64,000 nucleotides of DNA, taken from positions 56,369 to 120,368 of the forward strand of contig CALXHR010000005.1 in NCBI GenBank assembly GCA_944388175.1, read 5' to 3'. This document shows, piece by piece, positions 1 through 64,000 of the stretch (positions are counted from its first letter, which is position 1; each line of letters begins with the position of its first letter). The DNA is from an uncultured Gemmiger sp. (GTDB lineage Bacteria; Bacillota; Clostridia; Oscillospirales; Ruminococcaceae). The notes beneath the pieces were generated by a model, which was given only the letters and a program-made list of their open reading frames with translations, was not told the origin of the DNA and made no database searches. A program made the position numbers and the translations under genes.

Positions 1-479
1 AGGTGGCCGTCCACAAAGGCGATCTCCTCGTCCGGCACGCGCACGCGCCAGGCCGGGGCCTTGGTTTTGGCCTTTTCGGCGGCCTGCGCAGGGGTCAGGC
101 CGCGGCAGGTGCCGGCGTAGACGACCTGGCCGTCGCTGCGGTGGGGTGCGCTGGCCGCGTGCAGCTGGCTGCGGCTGCAAAAACAGGGGTAGGTCAGCCC
201 GCGCGCGGCGAGCTTGTCATAATACTGCTGGTAGATGGCGCTGCGCGCGCTCTGGTACACCGGCGGGCAGGGGCCGTCGGCGGCCAGGCCCAGCCAGGCC
301 AGGTCGTCGACGATGGCGTCGGCGTAGACGCGCGGGCAGCGCTGGGCGTCGAGGTCCTCGATGCGCAATAGCACCTGCCCGCCCTTGCTTTTGGCCGAAA
401 GCCAGGCCAGCAGGCAGCACAGCAGGTTGCCCAGGTGCATGCGCCCGCTGGGGCTGGGCGCGTAACGGCCGGTGGTCAT
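1..479 (-). CDS. gluQ: Glutamyl-Q tRNA(Asp) synthetase, C-terminal part missing
   Basis: The enzyme activates glutamate and attaches it to the queuosine base of tRNA(Asp). The gene is cut by the left window edge; about 159 N-terminal residues are present. The reading starts MTTGRYAPSPSGRMHLGN, with the class I HIGH-type signature as HLGN at residues 16-19, then RIEDLD at about residues 39-44. The CFCSR stretch near residue 109 and the later YAGTC near residue 132 fit the Cys-x-Cys...Tyr...Cys zinc site typical of GluQ rather than full GltX. The ATG overlaps the stop codon of the upstream M18 peptidase gene (ATGA), so translation is probably coupled. GltX cannot be excluded formally because the C-terminus is outside the window. 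Confidence 0.85.
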   Translation of the reverse strand, partial: MTTGRYAPSPSGRMHLGNLLCCLLAWLSAKSKGGQVLLRIEDLDAQRCPRVYADAIVDDLAWLGLAADGPCPPVYQSARSAIYQQYYDKLAARGLTYPCFCSRSQLHAASAPHRSDGQVVYAGTCRGLTPAQAAEKAKTKAPAWRVRVPDEEIAFVDGH

Positions 480-1774
480 GCCAGCGTATAGGCGCCGTCG
501 GCCAGCGCGCGCAGGTGGACGCGGTAGAACGCCGCCACCGCGCGCACCATGGCGTTTATATCGGCCACAGCCGCCGTCTCGACAGCCGAATGCATCGCCA
601 GCTGCGGCAGGCCGATGTCCGCCATGGGTACCGGCAGCGTGTGGCTTTGCAGGTTGCCCAGCGTGCTGCCGCCCGGCTCGTCGGCGCGGTTGGTGAACAC
701 CTGCACCGGCACGCCGGCCTGCCGGCAGATGGCGCGGAAAATGCCGCCGCTGAGCGCGTTGGTGGTGTATTTCTGGCTGGCATTGTACTTGAGCACGACG
801 CCGCCGCCCAGCCGCACGGGGGCAGCCGGGTCGCTTTTTTGGGCAAAGTTGGGGTGGGTGGCGTGGCCGTTGTCGGCGCTGAGCAAAAAGCTGTTGGCCA
901 GCGCGCGGTATTCCATCTGCGCGCTGTGGGGGATGGACGCAAGGATGCGGTCCAGCACGTCGCGCAAAAAGCTGCTCTGCGCGCCCTGCCGGCTCGAGGA
1001 ACCGACTTCCTCATGGTCCAGCATCGCCCACACGGGGGCGCAGGCGCTGTCGGCTTCGGCCGCGGCGTCCAAAAAGCCCAGCAGCGTCGTGGCGGCGCAG
1101 GCCAGGTCGTCGATGCGCGGCGCCATGAAATATTCGCCGTCAGGGCCCACCTGCACCGGGGCCTGCCGCACCACCAGCTGCAGGTCGCGGTCCAGAATGT
1201 CCTCCGCCTGCACGCCGAGTTCCTCGCACAGCAGATCGGTCAGCGTGCGGCTGCCCGCCGGGCCCCACAGCGGCTGCATGTCCAGCTGGGGGTTGTACTC
1301 GTGCCCTTTGTTGACGTCGCGCTGCATGTGGATGGCCAGCGACGGGATCACCAGCAGATCGCGGTCGAGGTACACCAGCCGCGTCTCGACGCCGTCGTCG
1401 GTGCGCAGCAGCACGCGCCCGGCTACCGTCAGCGGGCGGTCCAGCCAGGTGGCCATGTTCATGCCGCCGTAGCCCTCGACGCTCAGGCGGCGGCAGCCGT
1501 CGTTTTCGACGGTGTCGGCCTTGATTTTCCACCCCGGGGCGTCGCTGTGGCTGGCCGTGATGCGCCACCCGCCGATGGCGTGGTCCGGCACGCGCCAGGC
1601 CACGACGGCCGAGCCGCCGCGGACGAGATAATACCCGTGGCCGGGTTCCAGGTTCCAGTAATCGGCTTCCTCCAGCCGGGCAAAGCCGGCGGCGTCCAGC
1701 CAGGCGGCCGCCGTGGCCGCCGCGTGGCAGGGGGTCAGCCCCTCCTGTAAAAATTCAAACACGTCGTCAATCAT
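476..1774 (-). CDS. apeB: M18 family aminopeptidase
   Basis: A 432-residue cytosolic zinc aminopeptidase of the M18 (aspartyl aminopeptidase/ApeB) family, about the usual length. The metal and catalytic residues sit in HSDAPGWKIK near residue 95, the later DDLA motif, and DHEEVGSSS near residue 252, all in M18 positions. The family removes N-terminal residues, often acidic ones, from peptides. It is the first gene of a two-gene unit with gluQ, overlapping it by 4 bp. A good promoter (TTGCCT, 17 bp, TACAAT on the minus strand) lies just upstream. Confidence 0.9.
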   Translation of the reverse strand: MIDDVFEFLQEGLTPCHAAATAAAWLDAAGFARLEEADYWNLEPGHGYYLVRGGSAVVAWRVPDHAIGGWRITASHSDAPGWKIKADTVENDGCRRLSVEGYGGMNMATWLDRPLTVAGRVLLRTDDGVETRLVYLDRDLLVIPSLAIHMQRDVNKGHEYNPQLDMQPLWGPAGSRTLTDLLCEELGVQAEDILDRDLQLVVRQAPVQVGPDGEYFMAPRIDDLACAATTLLGFLDAAAEADSACAPVWAMLDHEEVGSSSRQGAQSSFLRDVLDRILASIPHSAQMEYRALANSFLLSADNGHATHPNFAQKSDPAAPVRLGGGVVLKYNASQKYTTNALSGGIFRAICRQAGVPVQVFTNRADEPGGSTLGNLQSHTLPVPMADIGLPQLAMHSAVETAAVADINAMVRAVAAFYRVHLRALADGAYTLA

Positions 1775-1809
1775 GTTTTATGCCTTTCTTTATGCGTATT
1801 TCCGCCCCT

Positions 1810-1838
1810 ATTGTACCGCAAACGACGGCGGCAGGCAA
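1810..1838 (-). promoter_or_regulatory. Promoter for apeB-gluQ
   Basis: On the minus strand the sequence reads TTGCCT, a 17-bp spacer, then TACAAT at 1815-1810, 36 bp upstream of the apeB start. It lies back to back with the promoter of the plus-strand lipoprotein gene. Confidence 0.55.
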
Positions 1839-1839
1839 G

Positions 1840-1868
1840 TTGCAAAAAAGGACGGCCGGTGGTAAAGT
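1840..1868 (+). promoter_or_regulatory. Promoter for lipoprotein gene
   Basis: TTGCAA at 1840-1845, a 17-bp spacer and TAAAGT at 1863-1868. It faces away from the apeB promoter and lies about 60 bp upstream of the lipoprotein ATG. Confidence 0.4.
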
Positions 1869-1927
1869 AGGGGATAGCACGCGGCAGATGCCGCGCGCAT
1901 ACCATAGACCAAAAGGAGGTACGCAGG

Positions 1928-2383
1928 ATGCGTAATTGGATCACTCTGCCGCTGTGCCTGCTGCTGGCGGGCTGCTCGGCCGTCGCGCCGGCCCAGAGCA
2001 CCGCCCCGCAGCAAACTACACAGACGCTGGCCACCGTGCTGGACAGCTGCATCGCCTTTGAGGCGGACAGCGCCGGCGGCAGCCTGAAAATAACGGTCGC
2101 AGCGTCGGACCTGGTGGTATTTTTGGCCGAAGAGCCCCCCGCCGACCTGCCGGGCGAGACGCAGGCCTGGCAGCAGGACCTGAGCGCGGACGAACAGCAG
2201 ACGCTGGACGCCAACTGGCCGGCGGTCTACCGCTTCGCGCAGGACCTGTGCGCCGACCCCGCCGCCCAGCAGGAACAGCTGGACACCGCCGGCGTAACCA
2301 CCGACTTGACGGCGCTGGACCTTGCCGGCGTACCGCAGGCGCTGGACACCATCGACCAGACGCTGTACGGCACGCAGGGGTAA
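1928..2383 (+). CDS. Small secreted lipoprotein, function unknown
   Basis: A 151-residue protein starting MRNWITLPLCLLLAGCS: a short signal peptide with a clear lipobox (LLAGC), so Cys16 should be lipidated and the protein exported to the outer face of the membrane. The rest is acidic, rich in Ala, Asp and Gln, and has no motif I recognise. The start is set by AAAGGAGGT about 7 bp before the ATG. It is a single-gene unit between its own promoter and the hairpin at 2408-2436. Confidence 0.75.
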   Translation: MRNWITLPLCLLLAGCSAVAPAQSTAPQQTTQTLATVLDSCIAFEADSAGGSLKITVAASDLVVFLAEEPPADLPGETQAWQQDLSADEQQTLDANWPAVYRFAQDLCADPAAQQEQLDTAGVTTDLTALDLAGVPQALDTIDQTLYGTQG

Positions 2384-2407
2384 CCGCGCCCCGGTAAAAA
2401 CCAGACC

Positions 2408-2440
2408 CGCCCCCGCCGCATGTTGCGGCGGGGGCGGTGT
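2408..2440 (+). terminator. Bidirectional terminator hairpin
   Basis: A 13-bp perfect GC stem at 2408-2420 and 2424-2436 with a TGT loop, between convergent genes. The following T content is modest (TGTGTCGTTTC), so efficiency is uncertain. Confidence 0.5.
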
Positions 2441-2456
2441 GTCGTTTCTAAGGGGG

Positions 2457-3404
2457 TCAGCCGCGGGTGCCGGCAATGCTGGAATCGGTGCTCCAGCCCT
2501 GCAAGTCGGTGGGGGTCAGGCTGGCCTGCCAGCTTTCGTGCTCGGCTTCCCACTGGTCCCACGCTTCTTGGCTGCGGATGGCCGTGCCGGTCAAATACGC
2601 GTCGTCCCAGGGGTTAGCGGGGTCGGGGTCGGTGGGGTCCCAGCCGCGCTTGGTCTCGTCGGCCGGGTCGGTGTAGATGGTGCCGGGCTTGCCCATGGGG
2701 CCGGGGTCGGCTTCGTCGTCATAAATCACGACCGGCGTGCCGATGGGGCAGTTGTCGTAAATCCACTTGACGTCCACCACCGCCAGCCGGATGCAGCCCA
2801 GGCTGGCCGGGGTGCCCAGCTCGTTGAACTGGTCGTACTCGACGTCATCCTTGTGCTGGCTGTAGTACGGCACGCTGTGGAACAGGTACCCGCCGTAGAT
2901 GCGCGTGGCGTACTGGCCGTAGCTGGGGCCCAGCAGCAGCCGCCAGTCGTAGCTGACGGGCGTCGTCCAGTAACCGGTGGGGGTGTCCGGCCCGCCGCTG
3001 CACACCATGGCCATAAACGGCACGGTATAGCGGCCGTCGGCGTCGGTGGTGTACACCGTCACGGTGGACGCCGCGCGGTTGACGGCCAGCAGGTAGGGGT
3101 AGCCCTCCTGCGCGGCCAGCGTCATGCCGTCGCCGGCAAACTGCTGTTCCAGGCGTTCCATCAGCGCCTTGCCAGCGTCGTCCCAGGTCGACGGGTCGGT
3201 GACCTGCGGGGGGTCCTTGGTGGCGTTGCTGGACGCCGTAGCCAGCACCAGTTCGCTTTCCGGCGTGGGAGTGGGCGTGGGGCTGGGCGTCGGCGCCGGG
3301 GTGGGGCTGGGCGTCGGGGTCGGTTCCGGCGCGGGCGTCAGCGCCGCGCACCCGGCCAGCAAAGCGGCCGCCAGCAGCGGCAGGATACGGCGAAACAGTT
3401 GCAT
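2457..3404 (-). CDS. L,D-transpeptidase (YkuD domain) lipoprotein
   Basis: About 315 residues. It starts MQLFRRILPLLAAALLAGC, a signal peptide with lipobox Cys19, followed by a Pro/Thr/Ser linker (residues 25-49) of the kind that spans the cell wall. The YkuD domain carries the catalytic signature: His176 in LFHSVP and Cys204 in SLGCIRL. Such enzymes form 3-3 cross-links in peptidoglycan or attach proteins to it. About 80 residues rich in Asp, Trp and Pro follow the domain. I chose the ATG at 3404 because AAAGGA lies 8-9 bp upstream of it; an in-frame ATG at 3413 sits directly on that ribosome binding site. Confidence 0.85.
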   Translation of the reverse strand: MQLFRRILPLLAAALLAGCAALTPAPEPTPTPSPTPAPTPSPTPTPTPESELVLATASSNATKDPPQVTDPSTWDDAGKALMERLEQQFAGDGMTLAAQEGYPYLLAVNRAASTVTVYTTDADGRYTVPFMAMVCSGGPDTPTGYWTTPVSYDWRLLLGPSYGQYATRIYGGYLFHSVPYYSQHKDDVEYDQFNELGTPASLGCIRLAVVDVKWIYDNCPIGTPVVIYDDEADPGPMGKPGTIYTDPADETKRGWDPTDPDPANPWDDAYLTGTAIRSQEAWDQWEAEHESWQASLTPTDLQGWSTDSSIAGTRG

Positions 3405-3526
3405 GGGGACCATCCTTTGTGAAAATGAAAACTTGTGGTACCGCGCGGCGCGCGACGGGTTTTGAAATAGGGGGGGGCGGTGCGGCGTTGGGCGTTGCCG
3501 GGTTTGCCTGGCGTTTGCCTTGTTCT

Positions 3527-3607
3527 GTAGGGCGGGGGTTCACCCCCGCCGCACATTATAAAATTTTAAAAAATCATCGGTTCGGCGGGGTCAAGACCCC
3601 GCCCTAC
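3527..3607. repeat. Composite palindromic element (type A pair)
   Basis: Left arm GTAGGGCGGGGGTTCACCCC..., an AT-rich core of about 30 bp, and an inverted right arm CGGCGGGGTCAAGACCCCG... ending CCCTAC. The outer ends form an inverted repeat, GTAGGGCGGG against CCCGCCCTAC. It has no flanking 79-bp units here. It lies between the L,D-transpeptidase and the aminotransferase genes, 5 bp from the latter's stop codon. Confidence 0.8.
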
Positions 3608-3612
3608 AGATT

Positions 3613-4815
3613 TCATTTTTCGTGAATTTGCACGCCGTATTCTTCCCGCACAAAGCGTTCCAGCGCGGCGAAGCTGCGGCGGACTTTTTCGGTCTCGATG
3701 CAGTACGCCATGCGGAAATACCCCGGGCAGCCGAAGGTATCGCCGGGCACCAGCGCCAGGTCGTAGGCCATCGCTTTGCGGCAGAAGGCGTTGGCGTCGG
3801 CTTCCAGCGCCTGGGGGAAGATATAGAACGTGCCGTCGGGCTTTTGCACGGTAAAGCCCAGGCGTTTGAGTTCGGCGTAGATCAGTTCCATGTTGGTTTT
3901 GTACACCGAAAGGTCGCTGGTGTCGTCGAGGCAGCGGGCCACGGCGCGCTGGAACAGCCCCGACGGGCAGTTGTGGCCGGTCCCGCGCGAAATCTGCCCG
4001 CACATCGGCACAATGAGGTCGGCGTCCTCGCACCGGGGGTTGGCGGCCAGGTAGCCGATGCGCTCGCCGGGGACGCTTAAACTTTTGGAGAAGGAATAGC
4101 AGGTCAGCGTGTCGTCATAAAATTGGGCGGGGTAGGGCACCGGGCTGCCGAACGCGATCTCACGGTAAGGCTCGTCCGAGATCAGGAAGATATGGTGGCC
4201 GTAGACCTGGCTGGCGGCCGCCAGCTTTTGGGCCAGGCGGGCCAGCGTCTCGGCGCTGTAGGCCACGCCGCTGGGGTTGTTGGGCGAGTTGATAAGCACG
4301 GCGGCGGTGTTTTCGTCCACCAGCGCGTCCAGCGCGTCGAGGTCGGGCTGGAAATCCGCCGTGCGCGGCGGCGCGACGCGCAAGGCAAGGCCCGCGCCCT
4401 CAGCATAGGGCTTATACTCGGGGAAAAACGGCGCAAAGGTCACGACGTTCTGCCCCGGCACGCCGACGCAGCGCAGCGCGTGGGCCAGCGCCCCCGCCGC
4501 GCCCGACGTCATAAAGATGTGCGCGGCGGTGTAGTCCATGCCGAAACGGCGGTTCAGGCTTTCGGCCACGGCGGCGCGCACCTCGGGCAGCGTCAGCGTG
4601 GGGGTGTAGCCGTGCAGCGTTACGGGGTCGGTGTGCTCCAGCAGGTCGCGGCAGGCCGCAGTAAAGGACGCCGGGCAGGGCACCGACGGGTTGCCCAGCG
4701 AGTAGTCGAACACGTTGTCGTAGCCGATCTCGGCCCCGCGGGCGGTGCTCCACTCGGAAATTTCGCGGATGACCGATTTGGCCCCCAGCATCTCTTTGTA
4801 AGCCTGTGCGATCAT
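3613..4815 (-). CDS. PLP-dependent aminotransferase, class I/II
   Basis: A 400-residue fold-type I aminotransferase. Features seen are SPNNPSG at residues 177-183, SDEPYRE at 213-219, and SFSKSLSVPGERIGY with the Schiff-base lysine at Lys244. The family transfers amino groups between amino and keto acids using pyridoxal phosphate; an aspartate/tyrosine aminotransferase-like role is plausible but the substrate cannot be read from sequence. The start MIAQAYKEM is supported by AAAGGAG about 10 bp upstream; a longer in-frame extension to 5079 runs into repeat DNA and is not credible. It is flanked on both sides by palindromic repeats. Confidence 0.85.
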   Translation of the reverse strand: MIAQAYKEMLGAKSVIREISEWSTARGAEIGYDNVFDYSLGNPSVPCPASFTAACRDLLEHTDPVTLHGYTPTLTLPEVRAAVAESLNRRFGMDYTAAHIFMTSGAAGALAHALRCVGVPGQNVVTFAPFFPEYKPYAEGAGLALRVAPPRTADFQPDLDALDALVDENTAAVLINSPNNPSGVAYSAETLARLAQKLAAASQVYGHHIFLISDEPYREIAFGSPVPYPAQFYDDTLTCYSFSKSLSVPGERIGYLAANPRCEDADLIVPMCGQISRGTGHNCPSGLFQRAVARCLDDTSDLSVYKTNMELIYAELKRLGFTVQKPDGTFYIFPQALEADANAFCRKAMAYDLALVPGDTFGCPGYFRMAYCIETEKVRRSFAALERFVREEYGVQIHEK

Positions 4816-4903
4816 GGTAGCAGCACTCCTTTGCGATTTTTGTGGAAAACAGGCGGGAGGTTCGTTTGCCGCTCTATGGGGGCATGCGGAATCCCGATTG
4901 GGT

Positions 4904-5537
4904 GTAGGGCGGGCCTTACCCCCGCCGTGTAGGTAGAGATTTGTTTGCAACCAAACGGGAACATGCGCTATTTCCGTCGGTTTGTAGGGGCCGCATGTAT
5001 GCGGCCCGTGCGTGTTTGCGGTGCTACCAGGTTCCCGGCTCGTGTACATGTTTACCTTATTTGTAGGGGCGGCATACATGCCGCCCGGCAGGGGTGTGCC
5101 ATCACGCAGGGTTTACGGGAAATATGGCCATTTGCCCCGATTTGTAGGGCGGGCGTTCACGCCCGCCGAACCTTGATTGTTTTTAAAATTTTCAATGTGC
5201 GGCGGGGTCAAGACCCCGCCCTACAAGGCAAGGCAAACGCCATACAAACCGTGAACAGGCAATCCCGCAATGTTTGCGGGCCGCATACATGCGGCCCCTA
5301 CAAACCCGGGTAAACACGCAACAAACCATACCCCCCACAAAGAGCGAACGCCCACGGCGGGGTCAAGACCCCGCCCTACAGTATAAAGCAAACACCATGA
5401 TAACCCGGCAACGGGCAGCGCCGCACCGTTTCGCGGGCGGCATGTATGCCGCCCCTACGCATGGACCGAACGTGGTCACAACGCAAAAACGGATTTGTTG
5501 GGTATACGGCCGCGGGCCGCAACCATGCGGCCCCTAC
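4904..5537. repeat. Mirror-symmetric array of ~79-bp palindromic units
   Basis: This fills most of the 783-bp gap between the aminotransferase and HAD genes. Left-oriented palindromes begin with GTAGGG at 4904 (type A), 4984 (type B), 5063 (B) and 5144 (A). The centre is a composite A-core-A element at 5144-5224. Right-oriented palindromes end with CCCTAC at 5224 (A), 5301 (B), 5379 (A), 5458 (B) and 5537 (B). Spacing is 77-81 bp on both sides. Type B core is GGCCGCATGTATGCGGCC or the GGCGGCAT...ATGCCGCC variant. I see no gene here. Confidence 0.85.
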
Positions 5538-5598
5538 AACGCAAGGCAAACGTCATACAACCCCTACCCGGGCAGCCGCTGCATTCTATCGCACCATT

Positions 5599-6261
5599 TC
5601 AATTTCCCAGGATCACCCGTTCCAGCGCGGCGGCGTCGGCGGCCAGGTACTCGGCCCCGGCGTCCTGCAGTTCCTGCCTGGTGCGGAACCCCCACAGCAC
5701 GCCGCAGCAGGGCAGCCCGGCGTTGTGGGCCGTGGCGACGTCGACGTTGCTGTCGCCGACATACAGCACATCCCCCGCCGCCGGGTCGGCGCCCAGGGCC
5801 GCCAGCAGCGCGCGGGTGCCCTCGGGCGCGGGCTTGGTGGGCACACCGGGGCGCGCGCCGCGCACAAGGGCAAACAGCGCCGGGTCAAAATACCGCGCGA
5901 CAACCTCGCCGGCAAATTCGTCCGCTTTGTTGGAGTAGACCGCCATGCGCACGCCGCGCGCGTGCAGCCGCGCCAGCAGCTGCGGCATGCCGGGGTAGGG
6001 GGCGGTTTTGTCAAACATATGCGCGCCGTACTGCGCGTCAAACTCGCGCAGGGTGGCCGCCAGCAGGGCGGGGGTGCGCGCCGTTTCGGGGCTGAACCGC
6101 TCGACCAGTTTGGGGATGCCGTTGCCCACAAAATACCGGTACTGCGCCACCGAAAACTGCGGCCAGCCGTGCGCCGCGCAGACGCGGTTGGCCGAGTCGG
6201 CCAGGTCGTCGATGGTGTTGAGCAGCGTGCCGTCTAGATCGAACAATACCGTTGTGTACAT
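5599..6261 (-). CDS. HAD-superfamily phosphatase, phosphoglycolate phosphatase-like
   Basis: A 220-residue haloacid dehalogenase hydrolase. It starts MYTTVLFDLDGTLLNT with the nucleophile Asp8 and general acid Asp10 (DxD), followed by motif II VYSNK and motif III/IV YVGDSNVD. The helical cap insertion after residue 15 places it in the Gph/PgmB-like subfamily, which dephosphorylates small metabolites. The substrate is unknown. The start at 6261 places the DLDGT motif at the expected distance from the N-terminus; the longer ORF form is not supported by a ribosome binding site. A strong promoter lies at 6304-6332. Confidence 0.85.
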   Translation of the reverse strand: MYTTVLFDLDGTLLNTIDDLADSANRVCAAHGWPQFSVAQYRYFVGNGIPKLVERFSPETARTPALLAATLREFDAQYGAHMFDKTAPYPGMPQLLARLHARGVRMAVYSNKADEFAGEVVARYFDPALFALVRGARPGVPTKPAPEGTRALLAALGADPAAGDVLYVGDSNVDVATAHNAGLPCCGVLWGFRTRQELQDAGAEYLAADAAALERVILGN

Positions 6262-6303
6262 GTGCGCGTTTTCCCCCCGCTTTTGCTGTTTTGGATACTT
6301 TTT

Positions 6304-6332
6304 ATTATAGTAGCTGCGCCCCAAAACGGCAA
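6304..6332 (-). promoter_or_regulatory. Promoter for HAD phosphatase gene
   Basis: Minus strand: TTGCCG, 17-bp spacer, then a perfect TATAAT at 6309-6304, about 43 bp upstream of the ATG. Confidence 0.6.
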
Positions 6333-6408
6333 GACCTTTTTGCCGCGGCGCGCGGCGCGCAAAACAGTTGTAAATTTATAAAAAAAGATACCCCACGCGC
6401 TGATTTTG

Positions 6409-6417
6409 TGGTATGAT
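6409..6417 (+). promoter_or_regulatory. Extended -10 promoter for uppP
   Basis: TGGTATGAT fits the extended -10 pattern TGnTATAAT; no good -35 box is visible. The uppP start lies about 30 bp downstream. The same TTTTGTGGTATG string occurs at the GT2 gene promoter (9860-9871). Confidence 0.45.
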
Positions 6418-6446
6418 AGGAAAATGGAATAAGGAGGCTTGCCTGC

Positions 6447-7307
6447 ATGGAATTGTTGTTGGACCTGCTGCGCTCCGCCGTATACGGCGTGATTGAAGGC
6501 ATTACCGAATGGCTGCCCATTTCCAGCACCGGCCACATGATCCTGGCCGAACAGGTGCTGAAATTCAGCTTTGACGACGCGTTCATGTCGATGTTCCGCG
6601 TCGTGATCCAGCTGGGCGCGATCTTGGCGGTGCTGGTATTGTACTGGAAAAAACTGTGGCCGTTTTGCGCCGACAACGGGCGCGATTCCGGCTTTGCCAA
6701 ACATCTGCGCTGGCCGGTGGTGCGGCTGTGGTGCAAGATCGTGGTGGCCTGCGTGCCGGCGGCCGTGCTGGGCTTTTTGCTGGACGACTGGCTGGACGCC
6801 CACCTGTACAACAGCGTCGTCGTCGCCATTATGCTGATCGTCTACGGCGCGGCGTTTATTTTGATTGAGCGCCGCCCCCGCGTGCCCGCCACCACCAAGC
6901 TCAACCGCATCACCTACAAGCAGGCGCTGCTGGTGGGCGCTTGGCAGGTACTGGCCATGATCCCCGGCACCTCGCGCAGCGGCGCCACCATCGTGGGCGG
7001 CCTGCTGTGCGGCATGAGCCGCCCCTGCGCGTCGCAATTCACCTTCTTTTTGGCGATCCCGGTCATGGCCGGCGCGTCGGGGCTCAAGGTCGTCAAATAC
7101 CTGGCCGAGGGCAGCGTCTTTACGCTGGCCGAAGTGCTGGCCCTCGCCGTGGGCTGCGTGGTGGCGTTCCTCGTCTCGATGGCGGCCATCCGCTTCCTGA
7201 TGAACTACGTCAAAAAGCACACCTTCACGGCCTTTGGCTGGTACCGCATCGCGCTGGGCGTGGTGGTGCTGGGCATCTGGGCGCTGCAGACCTACGTGCT
7301 GGTATAA
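6447..7307 (+). CDS. uppP: Undecaprenyl-diphosphatase
   Basis: A 286-residue polytopic membrane protein of the UppP/BacA family. It dephosphorylates undecaprenyl diphosphate on the outer face of the membrane to recycle the lipid carrier for cell wall synthesis; overexpression of the family is known to raise bacitracin resistance. The first active-site motif, EGITEWLPISSTGH (residues 17-30), is complete with its glutamates and SSTGH, and the second (GTSRSG near residue 173) is also intact. AAGGAGG precedes the ATG. A perfect palindromic terminator follows. Confidence 0.95.
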   Translation: MELLLDLLRSAVYGVIEGITEWLPISSTGHMILAEQVLKFSFDDAFMSMFRVVIQLGAILAVLVLYWKKLWPFCADNGRDSGFAKHLRWPVVRLWCKIVVACVPAAVLGFLLDDWLDAHLYNSVVVAIMLIVYGAAFILIERRPRVPATTKLNRITYKQALLVGAWQVLAMIPGTSRSGATIVGGLLCGMSRPCASQFTFFLAIPVMAGASGLKVVKYLAEGSVFTLAEVLALAVGCVVAFLVSMAAIRFLMNYVKKHTFTAFGWYRIALGVVVLGIWALQTYVLV

Positions 7308-7325
7308 GTTCTGCCAAACAAAATT

Positions 7326-7353
7326 CCCCCGCCGTGTACACGGCGGGGGTTTT
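7326..7353 (+). terminator. Terminator of uppP
   Basis: A perfect 24-bp palindrome (7326-7349) CCCCCGCCGTG..., followed by TTTT. It lies between convergent genes and may serve both. Confidence 0.75.
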
Positions 7354-7374
7354 GCGTTGGTATCGTTGGCGCAG

Positions 7375-8244
7375 TCACACCCGGGCGCGTTTTTGGGCGG
7401 CCAGGTACTCGACGGCCGAGAGCGCCGCCACGTTGCCCTGCCCCGCCGCCTTGACGTACTGGTACGGCAGGCCGGCCGCGTCGCCGCAGGCAAAGCAGCC
7501 CGGCAAATTGGTGCGCATCTGCGCGTCCACCGCCACGTGGCCGCCGTCGGCAGCCAGGCCCGGCACCAGCTGGGCGGGAGCCATGGCGTCGCGCAGCAAA
7601 AACACGCCGTCCACGGCCAGGTCGCCGCCGTCGGTGCGCAGCGTGTCCACGGTGTCGCCGCCCTCGACGCCCAGCGGTTTGTGCCGCACCACCTGCACGG
7701 CGGGCGGCAGCGCGGGGTCGCCCGCATACAGCGGCAGGTAGGTCACGCGCGCCGCAACTTCGGCCAGGTAGGCGGCTTCCGGCTCGGCGGCAGGGCTGGC
7801 GCCCACCACCGCCACCGCCTTGCCGCGGTACAGCGGCGCGTCGCAGGTGGCACAGTAGCTGACGCCGCGGCCAAGATACTCCTCCTCGCCGGGCAGGGGC
7901 TTGCCCTGCACGACGCCGGTGGCCAGAATGACCGTCGCGGCTTCGTACATCTGCTCGGCCGTCTGCACAGCAAAGTAGTCGCCCATGGCGTAGACGGCGT
8001 TGACGCGCTGCTCGGTGATGGCAATGCCCATCACGTCAAGGTGGCGGGCGAACGCCGCGCGCAGGTCCTGCCCGGCGATATCGGGCAGGCCGGGGTAGTT
8101 CTGGATGCGGTGCGCCTTGCCGATTTTATCGCTGAGGGCGCGCGAACCGAACAGCAGCAGCGTTTTGCCGCGCAGCTTGGCGGTGATGGCGGCCGAAACA
8201 CCGGCCGGCCCGGTGCCGATGACGGCGATCTCCACACGGGGCAT
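7375..8244 (-). CDS. Thioredoxin-reductase-like flavoprotein with degenerate NAD(P)H site
   Basis: A 289-residue protein with thioredoxin reductase architecture. The N-terminal FAD-binding motif GTGPAG is at residues 10-15 and the redox-active CATC (Cys131, Cys134) is in place. The second nucleotide-binding motif, usually GGGxSAxE followed by HRRxxxR, is replaced by VVGASPAAEPEA near residue 150 with no HRR. Flavin thioredoxin reductases that use ferredoxin or other donors in clostridia are known to lack the NADPH motifs, so this may not be an NADPH enzyme. GAGGAGGT precedes the ATG. It lies 15 bp downstream of the M32 peptidase gene and is probably co-transcribed with it. Confidence 0.8.
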   Translation of the reverse strand: MPRVEIAVIGTGPAGVSAAITAKLRGKTLLLFGSRALSDKIGKAHRIQNYPGLPDIAGQDLRAAFARHLDVMGIAITEQRVNAVYAMGDYFAVQTAEQMYEAATVILATGVVQGKPLPGEEEYLGRGVSYCATCDAPLYRGKAVAVVGASPAAEPEAAYLAEVAARVTYLPLYAGDPALPPAVQVVRHKPLGVEGGDTVDTLRTDGGDLAVDGVFLLRDAMAPAQLVPGLAADGGHVAVDAQMRTNLPGCFACGDAAGLPYQYVKAAGQGNVAALSAVEYLAAQKRARV

Positions 8245-35727: not shown

Positions 35728-36032
35728 GTAGGGGAGGCATACATGCCTCCCGGCAGGGGGGTACGCCGCGCGGGGGTTGCGGTTGGCTGCCCGTTCCCGC
35801 CGCCCTGTAGGGCGGGGTCTTGACCCCGCCGCACCGATAATTTTTCAAAAATTTTTTATAATGTTCGGCGGGCGTGAACGCCCGCCCTACAAGGCAAAGC
35901 AAACGCCAGGCCGCCCCGGCAACGCCAAATGACCGCATCGTTTTGCGGGCGGCATGTATGCCGCCCCTACGCATGGACCGAACGCGGTCGCGACCCAAAA
36001 ACGGTACCATGGGGCAAATGACCCCACCCTAC
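35728..36032. repeat. Mirror-symmetric repeat array inside the fructan operon
   Basis: Left type B palindrome at 35728-35751 (GAGGCATACATGCCTC variant), composite A-core-A at 35807-35890, right type B at 35947-35970 and a degraded right unit ending at 36032. Spacing is 79-80 bp except for the last unit. It fills the 565-bp gap between permease and binding-protein genes of one operon. I see no gene or clear promoter there. Confidence 0.8.
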
Positions 36033-55388: not shown

Positions 55389-55468
55389 GTAGGGCGGGCG
55401 TTCACGCCCGCCGCACCAATGATTTTTTAAAAATTATAATGTGCGGCAGGGCCAAGGCCCCGCCCTAC
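55389..55468. repeat. Composite palindromic element (type A pair)
   Basis: Left arm GTAGGGCGGGCGTTCACGCC..., AT-rich core, right arm with a GGGCCAAGGCCCC variant centre ending CCCTAC. It lies between the noc-like gene and the parS site. No 79-bp flanking units are seen. Confidence 0.75.
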
Positions 55469-58447: not shown

Positions 58448-58679
58448 GTAGGGGCCGCATGTATGCGGCTCGCGCCCGTTTGCGGTGTTACTCGTTTCCC
58501 GGTTCGTGTACATGTTTACCTTATTTGTAGGGGCCGCATATATGCGGCCCGGCAGGGGTTTGCCCCGCGCGAGGTTCCCGGTTGGTTACCCGTTTGCCCC
58601 GGTTTGTAGGGCGGGGTCTTGACCCCGCCGCACATTAATAAAAAATCACCGGTGCGGCGGGCGTGAACGCCCGCCCTAC
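58448..58679. repeat. Half array of ~79-bp palindromic units
   Basis: Left type B palindromes at 58448-58471 and 58527-58550, then a composite A-core-A element at 58606-58679. Spacing is exactly 79 bp in both steps. Unlike other arrays, no right-oriented type B units follow. The spacer between the first two copies closely resembles the one after 4984-5007 (it ends CGTGTACATGTTTACCTTAT). The 449-bp gap holds no gene. Confidence 0.85.
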
Positions 58680-60496: not shown

Positions 60497-60838
60497 GTAG
60501 GGGCCGCATGCATGCGGCCCGCAAACATTGCGGGATTGTCCGTTCACGGTTGGCACGCTGTTTGTTTTGCCTTGTAGGGCGGGGTCTTGACCCCGCCGCA
60601 CATTGAAAAATTTTAAAAAATTGATCGGTTCGGCGGGCGAAATCGCCCGCCCTACAGAGCGGCTGGAACGTGTAACCAACCGGGAACCCCGCGTGGTGGT
60701 ACGCATACCGTACCGTAGGTGTCAATGGAAATGTGGCACGGCCTGTATGCCGCCCCTACAAATAAGGGTACCGCGTACACAAACCAAAAACGTTGCCCCG
60801 TGGCAAACGCCCACGGGCCGCATGCATGCGGCCCCTAC
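60497..60838. repeat. Mirror-symmetric array of ~79-bp palindromic units
   Basis: Left type B at 60497-60520, composite A-core-A at 60574-60655, a degraded right type B ending at 60759 and an intact right type B at 60815-60838. Spacing is 77, 104 (degraded unit) and 79 bp. It takes up most of the 573-bp gap; I see no gene. Confidence 0.85.
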
Positions 60839-63305: not shown

Positions 63306-64000
63306 GTAGGGGCGGCATATATGCCGCCCGGCAGGGGTGAATGGTCGCGCGGGGTTTGCGGTTGGCCTGTTGTTTGCCTTACTCTGTAGGGCGGGGTCTT
63401 GACCCCGCCGTGGGCGGCCTGCGGCAAACGCCTGCTTTACCTGTTTACCTGCCGTCCCCGGTCGGTTTGTAGGGGCCGCATGTATGCGGCCCGTGAACAT
63501 TTGCCCAACGCGGGATTTATGGGAAATATGGCCGTTTACCCTGTTCTGTAGGGCGGGCGTTCACGCCCGCCGAACCAATAATTTTTTTTAAATTTTATAA
63601 TGTGCAGCGGGGTCAAGACCCCGCCCTACAAGACAAAATAAACAACACACAAACCGGGTACAGGCAACGGTCATACCGTTTCGCGGGCGGCATCTCTGCC
63701 GCCCCTACGCATAGACCCAACACCATCACGGTACAAAAACGGTACATAAGGCGACCACCCGCGGGCCGCATACATGCGGCCCCTACAATGCAAGGCAAAC
63801 ATCATACAACCCATAAACGACCAACGCCATAACGTTCGGCGGGCAGCATGTGTGCCGCCCCTACGCATAGACCCAACACCATCACGGTACAAAAACGGTA
63901 CATAAGGCGACCACCCGCGGGCAGCATACATGCGGCCCCTACAATGCAAGGCAAACATCATACAACCCATAAACGACCAATACCCGCACCGTTCGCGGGC
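63306..64000. repeat. Largest mirror-symmetric array, running off the right edge
   Basis: Left units start at 63306 (B), 63386 (A), 63469 (B) and 63548 (A). The composite centre is 63548-63629. Right units end at 63708, 63786, 63864 and 63942 (all B), at 78-79 bp steps, and another begins at the window edge. The right part includes a recent tandem duplication of two units (see separate entry). No gene is seen in the 895 bp after ftsH. Confidence 0.88.
63697..63980. repeat. Tandem duplication, 156-bp period
   Basis: 63697-63824 and 63853-63980 are nearly identical over 128 bp (one clear substitution, GGGCCGCATACA against GGGCAGCATACA). The 156-bp step equals two 78-bp array units. Confidence 0.85.

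Follow-up and report, generated by a model that had tools for sequence, protein, structure and literature searches.

Mirror-symmetrical REP clusters in a Gemmiger genome and their association with RAYT genes

Short palindromes recur at a period of about 79 bp in a 64,000-nucleotide stretch of DNA from an uncultured Gemmiger species (the window), for example at positions 4904 to 5537. They are repetitive extragenic palindromic (REP) sequences tagged with GTAG, and they form clusters built round a head-to-head REP pair, or REPIN (REP doublet forming hairpin). These clusters are probably dispersed by, and co-evolve with, single-strand transposases of the RAYT type (REP-associated tyrosine transposase, TnpA-REP). 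The architecture of these REP/REPIN arrays is new: an arm of single REPs extends on either side of one REPIN, and the arms may have grown by RAYT insertion at GTAG, by recombination or by nesting. REP/RAYT pairs are thereby brought to light in gut Ruminococcaceae, which go unmentioned in connection with REPs in the excerpts of the REP literature used here. The main text of one survey (Di Nocera 2013, PMC3733652) contains neither Firmicutes nor Faecalibacterium nor any name in Clostridi- or Ruminococc-, and among the best-ranked matches listed from the open-access literature no paper on REP/RAYT arrays in the Gemmiger group was found.

The genome carrying the window (G000) is a metagenome-assembled genome of 1.75 Mb in 14 contigs, 69% complete, whose gyrB is closest (95%, among the 80 loci kept) to that of Candidatus Gemmiger excrementigallinarum; the window lies on contig C5, which ends at window base 64000. 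Counts for G000 refer to 243 units in 54 clusters, after removal of double calls, from the window and 19 fetched stretches (L-numbers) picked for holding REPs. The choice was made from about 100 listed places for each of two strict REP patterns (of 125 and 125); contigs beyond C9 were hardly sampled (C10 at bases 1-8000 only), and the full list of type-A places has one on C10 and none on C11-C14. The sister species G200 was sampled with 210 units in 68 clusters on 35 stretches; other G-numbers denote further genomes. Published systems are compared throughout from excerpts of the papers cited.

Anatomy of the repeat and layout of the arrays

Each REP consists of the GTAG tag and a stem, which in most units measures 9 bp and is perfect or almost so (perfect in 207 of the 243 units). 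Four main stem types recur, A (GTAGGGCGGGCG(n4)CGCCCGCCG), B (GTAGGGCGGGGTCTTGACCCCGCCG), C (GTAGGGGCCGCA(n4)TGCGGCCCG) and D (GTAGGGGCGGCA(n4)TGCCGCCCG), while a fifth, E, is related to A and B; the types are distinguished by paired changes in the stem. A loose pattern matches G000 240 times (a few matches overlap) against 13 for its reversed control, and the two strict patterns match 125 and 125 times against 0 and 0. A scan of the window at the Rfam gathering thresholds gave no match. The repeat is a short palindrome with GTAG at one of its feet, has a high copy number and lies mostly outside genes, all features of the GTAG superfamily of REPs. With the described members it shares the unpaired GTAG at the foot of a palindrome of 20-40 bp, abundance, intergenic location, heterodimers, clusters and RAYT association (PMC3733652). 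Judged by the sequence features tested, the Gemmiger repeats belong to this superfamily, save that the RAYT gene of G000 is not framed by REPs.

The arrays follow a simple grammar. Steps between REPs of the same orientation measure 76-84 bp in 137 of 142 cases and head-to-head steps 73-91 bp in 29 of 36, while the 11 tail-to-tail steps (54-187 bp) lie at meeting points of two arrays. Among runs of at least three units, 33 of 37 read +..+-..- (22 of the 26 holding both orientations), compared with a mean of 14.3 and a maximum of 22 in 10,000 shuffles of the orientations within runs; all four exceptional runs contain a tail-to-tail step. An earlier note on the window had placed nine palindromes at 4904-5537, with steps of 77-81 bp and a single orientation flip at 5144/5224. 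Its coordinates are exact (Table 1), and the flip falls at the core. The plan recurs as described at 35728, 60497 and 63306. The array at 58448, which had been taken for a left half only, ends in a core of its own, and two core-only pairs had escaped notice (3527/3607 and 55389/55468).

Table 1. Coordinates of arrays, array components and RAYT-associated REP pairs; window positions unless an L-number is given. A slash in an array formula marks the core switch.
Feature	Position	Strand	Remark
Degenerate outermost REP, left arm	4904..4928	+	GTAG tag, 6-bp stem, 7-nt loop
REP type C	4984..5008	+
Spacer class s10	5009..5062	+
REP type D	5063..5087	+
Spacer class s6, inner left	5088..5143	+
Core, head-to-head REP pair (REPIN)	5144..5224	.	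type A + AT-rich loop 5169-5199 + type B
Spacer class s2, inner right	5225..5276	-
REP type C	5277..5301	-
Spacer, nearest class s10	5302..5354	-
REP type B	5355..5379	-
Spacer class s2	5380..5433	-
REP type D	5434..5458	-
Spacer class s9	5459..5512	-
REP type C	5513..5537	-
s2-like spacer past last REP, arm terminates in spacer	5538..5600	-	E 8.6e-8; right end approximate
Core-only array (E/B)	3527..3607	.	s2-like flank at left
Array D B / A D	35728..35970	.
Core-only array	55389..55468	.	s6 + s2 flanks
Array C C B / A	58448..58679	.	ends in core 58606+/58679-
Array C B / A D C	60497..60838	.
Array D B C A / B D C D C	63306..63942	.	near contig end
Super-unit copies	L045 10206-10612; L044 4178-4584; L049 4814-5221, 10988-11395; L241 4902-5308
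RAYT-internal REP pairs	L258 (G210), L259 (G203), L262 (G209), L263 + L281 (G223), L264 (G220)
RAYT-internal REP pairs, continued	L265 (G227), L268 (G197), L269, L280, L282, L287, L133, L139, L150

The 29 cores comprise 23 AB pairs, four AE, one AC and one BE; type A is thus paired with B or E in 27 of them, so that the two core stems differ. Core loops are related between arrays, and a head-to-head pair with a conserved loop that is dispersed in the genome is what has been described as a REPIN (Bertels and Rainey 2011, PMC3116915). However, the ordered clusters reported there are tandem whole REPINs, whereas the Gemmiger arrays contain one REPIN amid arms of single REPs. Bacterial interspersed mosaic elements (BIMEs, including BIME-2; PMC2817692, PMC8266576) likewise form intergenic clusters of several regularly spaced REPs, but their orientation alternates, unlike the constant orientation and single flip of the Gemmiger arms, which are thus no BIMEs in the strict sense. 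The earlier note knew of no named family with the mirror layout; there is one, the units being GTAG REPs and the core a REPIN, although the head-to-tail mirror layout is not described in the excerpts of the REP literature considered. In G223 (L255, L256, L257) REPINs of 79-80 bp are mostly solitary (six listed); their flanks of about 33 bp are similar, and several copies have an inverted motif resembling TGTCAAAAA / TTTTTTGACA at the flank ends. This is a simple, armless state resembling miniature inverted-repeat transposable elements.

All but five of 137 spacers fall into six main classes, and their outward order tends to s6-D-s10 (or s4)-C-s7-B in one arm and to s2-D-s9-C-s2 in the opposite one, although 19 of the 64 arm sides with at least two scored spacers mix both sets (clusters with two arrays included). 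In G000, 22 of the 25 cores with both flanks scored stand between an s6 and an s2 spacer (the rest being s6/s6, s2/s2 and s2/s7); the figure is 12 of 12 in G200 and 34 of 37 over both sister species. These inner spacers measure 54 bp, and the consensus sequences of s6 and s2 are unrelated (z -0.1, 300 shuffles), those of s9 and s10 related (z 4.3). The arms thus mirror each other in orientation, but neither is a copy of its opposite. The core itself stands either way round between them, with A on the s6 side 11 times and B 12 times. The unit proposed earlier, a palindrome plus a semi-conserved spacer, is borne out, as is the kinship of the spacers that follow 4984 and 58448, both of class s10. 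Arms often terminate in a spacer without a REP, and the unit is for that reason better written as a spacer plus a GTAG-hairpin.

Regularly spaced palindromes also call to mind clustered regularly interspaced short palindromic repeats (CRISPR). The flip of orientation at the core and the assignment of most spacers to six recurrent classes common to different loci put such an array practically out of the question, and the earlier note had been right to set it aside. A super-unit of 406-407 bp, common to G000 and G200, consists of two same-arm REPs with a conserved stretch of about 340 bp between them, in which no gene is obvious.

Association with RAYT genes

The earlier note had advised a search for a RAYT/TnpA(REP)-type transposase, and G000 has one Y1_Tnp gene, located between gyrB and gyrA, that encodes 154 amino acids with a HUH motif. 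Among NCBIfam models it comes nearest to 'REP-associated tyrosine transposase' (E 3.8e-19, 69 bits, under the cut-off of 80), and of solved relatives TnpArep (4er8, E 6e-12) matches the RAYT alignment best. In G200 an intact open reading frame (ORF) of 159 amino acids occupies the same place between gyrB and gyrA and is framed by inverted type-A REPs that are 543 bp apart. A RAYT gene framed by inverted REPs is the plan reported by Nunvar (2010, PMC2817692), and this arrangement of a HUH gene between inverted REPs (G200, L261; G209, L279) is shared with known RAYTs and REPtrons (PMC2817692, PMC8266576, PMC6006769). In G197 (L268), G220 (L264) and G223 (L263) head-to-head pairs of type-B REPs lie within the RAYT ORFs themselves. 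The link between repeat and transposase is therefore direct, through REPs that frame RAYT genes or sit inside them.

Fifteen of 29 distinct RAYT-like ORFs hold, within the coding frame, a head-to-head pair of one GTAG REP, 157-309 bp apart and flanking the HUH codons, and four further ORFs have a REP pair round the gene; with seven other four-letter tags as controls, the count of internal pairs was 0 of 29 for each. The position of the pair within the gene, around the HUH codons, sets these ORFs apart from the RAYTs and REPtrons of the sources just cited. L136, L137 and L142 likewise carry an internal pair and fell outside the ORF filter. The internal REP varies from gene to gene and is multi-copy in its own genome in G203 and G210, which hold 77 and 16 copies respectively (the gene's own two included); three copies occur in G209 and none in the other 32 genomes. 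The pairing of a RAYT with its REP can therefore be specific. In G122, from another genus, a 133-bp head-to-head REP pair immediately follows the RAYT gene (L132); its length equals that of the type-C pair downstream of the G000 RAYT, and G122 has 21 related REP copies.

Across 35 genomes of the genus, a RAYT was found in 16 of the 21 with any REP match but in only one of the 14 without (Fisher p 8e-5), and omission of the six genomes from which the model was built leaves 10 of 15 against one of 14 (p 0.0017). RAYTs were detected with an alignment (A2, E<1e-20), the plain Pfam Y1_Tnp model mixing IS200 TnpA with RAYT and missing the G200 gene. Because the reversed control reaches 0-5 matches per genome, genomes with fewer than 10 matches are doubtful carriers; at a stricter split of 10 matches the proportions are 13 of 16 and four of 19 (p 6e-4), or seven of 10 and four of 19 without the model-source genomes (p 0.017). 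Classical IS200-type TnpA genes (E ~1e-40), distinct from the RAYTs, also occur on G220:C1 and in other genomes of the genus, with at least five copies of near-identical score in G220.

Turnover between sister species and possible modes of arm growth

G200 is largely syntenic with G000 where compared (79 BLAST matches above 300 bp, median identity 92.9%, many near 95%), and it has the same units and grammar, with head-to-tail steps of 76-84 bp in 96 of 105 cases. The arrays turn over fast: the strings of units differ at 20 of 23 orthologous intervals (four of which exceed 2 kb in G200 and may contain other rearrangements), although the flanks are about 93-95% identical. Arm length, whose variation the earlier note had proposed to check, differs between sister species. 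The three agreeing intervals are two single REPs and the array at 35728, in which one G200 REP lacks two bases. That array and its orthologue in L251 are nearly identical save for one spacer that differs in a patch, which looks like gene conversion. Elsewhere, the L038 array at 3934-4448 is reduced in G200 to a core flanked by s2 and s6, which fits gain in one species or loss in the other alike; at L049 7889 the left sides differ in length by two whole units, the joint falling at GTAG, and the right side differs too; and the coreless array at L040 8501-8657 retains GTAG at its joint. In no case do these differences separate transposition from recombination.

How might such arrays come about? 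At the centre of a typical array is the REPIN, two REPs of different stem, mostly A with B, set head to head and spanning 73-91 bp. Further REPs follow on each side head to tail at about 79 bp with every GTAG pointing outward, which makes the arms mirror images in orientation. This grammar is shown by the sequences, as are the anatomy of the REPs, their linkage to RAYT genes, the turnover between sister species and the intergenic location. We infer that a RAYT, by cutting and joining DNA at GTAG, made the core and moves it. With less certainty, the arms would lengthen when blocks of whole units are inserted at GTAG junctions, be it by a RAYT or by recombination, and deletion decay together with patch-wise gene conversion would let the arrays diverge. 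If units enter beside GTAG in one fixed orientation, tandem copies would build up on each strand's side, and mirror symmetry would need no special programme.

The earlier note had suggested growth by unit duplication on both sides of a founding inverted element. A few genuine local duplications of two-unit blocks do exist; in the 63306 array, for instance, one s9 spacer is present in two identical copies. Neighbouring spacers within an arm, however, are of different class in 69 of 70 cases, and the inner s6 and s2 are unrelated; plain duplication of single units was accordingly dropped as the main mode of growth. A broader version holds that only the core was ever mobile and that the arms behave like a satellite, extended and shuffled without any help from a transposase, through slippage, unequal crossing-over and gene conversion among the REPs. 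It is possible, though we think it rather less than probable. In its favour, identical spacers occur within one cluster (the 63306 array; the block A D C B present twice in L036), and of 26 pairs of same-class spacers within one arm 19% have an identity above 0.9, compared with 1.2% of 1789 between-array pairs; the spacer patch at 35728/L251 is likewise of the kind that conversion gives. Yet simple single-unit slippage cannot explain the order, given the alternation of spacer classes and the unrelated inner spacers.

Only tentatively may the mirror arrays be read as the product of RAYT growth itself, in which single-stranded blocks of whole 79-nt units are joined beside GTAG in one fixed orientation. 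Since a REPIN shows GTAG on each strand, two oppositely oriented arms would grow. On this reading the polarity of RAYT insertion would be visibly recorded in the array, and a tandem-forming RAYT mode is not described in the excerpts of the REP literature considered.

Nested insertion is unlikely. Successive REPINs would each have entered the middle of the previous one, leaving C..C outside, D..D inside and A..B as the last arrival, with the outer pairs the oldest. Many arrays do read C D [core] D C, and the core sits nearly always between s6 and s2 in either orientation, like a cassette; clusters without a full core exist as well (L040 8258, L045 16534, and half cores in G200). The order of types, though, is often unmirrored (window 4984-5537; 63306), a deletion would also explain the L040 joint, and core-only arrays retain spacers on one or both sides.

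Several observations weigh against RAYTs as the agents of dispersal and growth. The RAYT gene of G000 has no left flanking REP and a type-C pair downstream instead. Five of the 21 genomes with REP matches, including the single-contig assembly G228, yielded no RAYT, while G225 has a RAYT and no match to the REP pattern, the REP within its RAYT being a different one. If insertion at GTAG were random, the spacer classes would not be expected to follow a preferred order; no insertion with a clean empty site was found, and short-homology deletion explains the GTAG joint at L040 8501-8657 equally well. REP dimers in the literature excerpted are, moreover, mostly head-to-head, whereas 142 of 189 steps in the G000 sample are head-to-tail. 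How RAYTs spread REPs is an open question that the Gemmiger sister pair could help to answer: it offers matched flanks, 54 and 68 clusters in the parts sampled, an intact RAYT ORF and a readable grammar, so that the rules of orientation and the gain and loss of units can be dated and tested.

Genomic context, folding and density

According to our own simple gene caller, 37 of the 54 clusters lie between co-directional genes, 13 between convergent genes and none between divergent ones; one is intragenic and three are at stretch edges. Divergent gaps hold 0 of 50 clusters but make up 30 of 179 called gaps (p 6e-4, clusters in one gap counted apart), as expected of a repeat that is tolerated past stop codons and not in promoter regions. 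In co-directional gaps the 3' end of the upstream gene is the nearer one for 22 of 32 clusters, and the paired test is not significant (p 0.66).

A selected host function, be it protection of RNA 3' ends, termination or an array for protein binding (gyrase, integration host factor), might instead maintain the layout. Besides the intergenic location with its one exception and the absence of clusters between divergent genes, the fold speaks for it: the single strand of 4900-5545 forms a long imperfect hairpin (DNA z -7.5, 20 shuffles), and gyrase and Pol I are bound by the REPs and BIMEs of other bacteria (PMC2817692). But there are no terminator-like sites in 4700-5700 (shuffles mean 1.4), which led us to discard intrinsic terminators, and array polarity shows no association with transcription (25 arrays, Fisher p 1.0), so that an RNA polarity function was dropped as well. 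Since the arrays also differ at 20 of 23 orthologous intervals and the REP pattern finds no match in 14 of the 35 genomes of the genus, a host function appears improbable.

REP density is very uneven in G000. Sixty-eight units were listed on the 70-kb contig C9, where the RAYT gene is located, and the 120-kb C5 has 80, compared with only six on the 540-kb C1 (double calls included; the order of contigs is unknown). In some genomes REPs are reported to be gathered close to RAYT genes (Nunvar 2010, PMC2817692).
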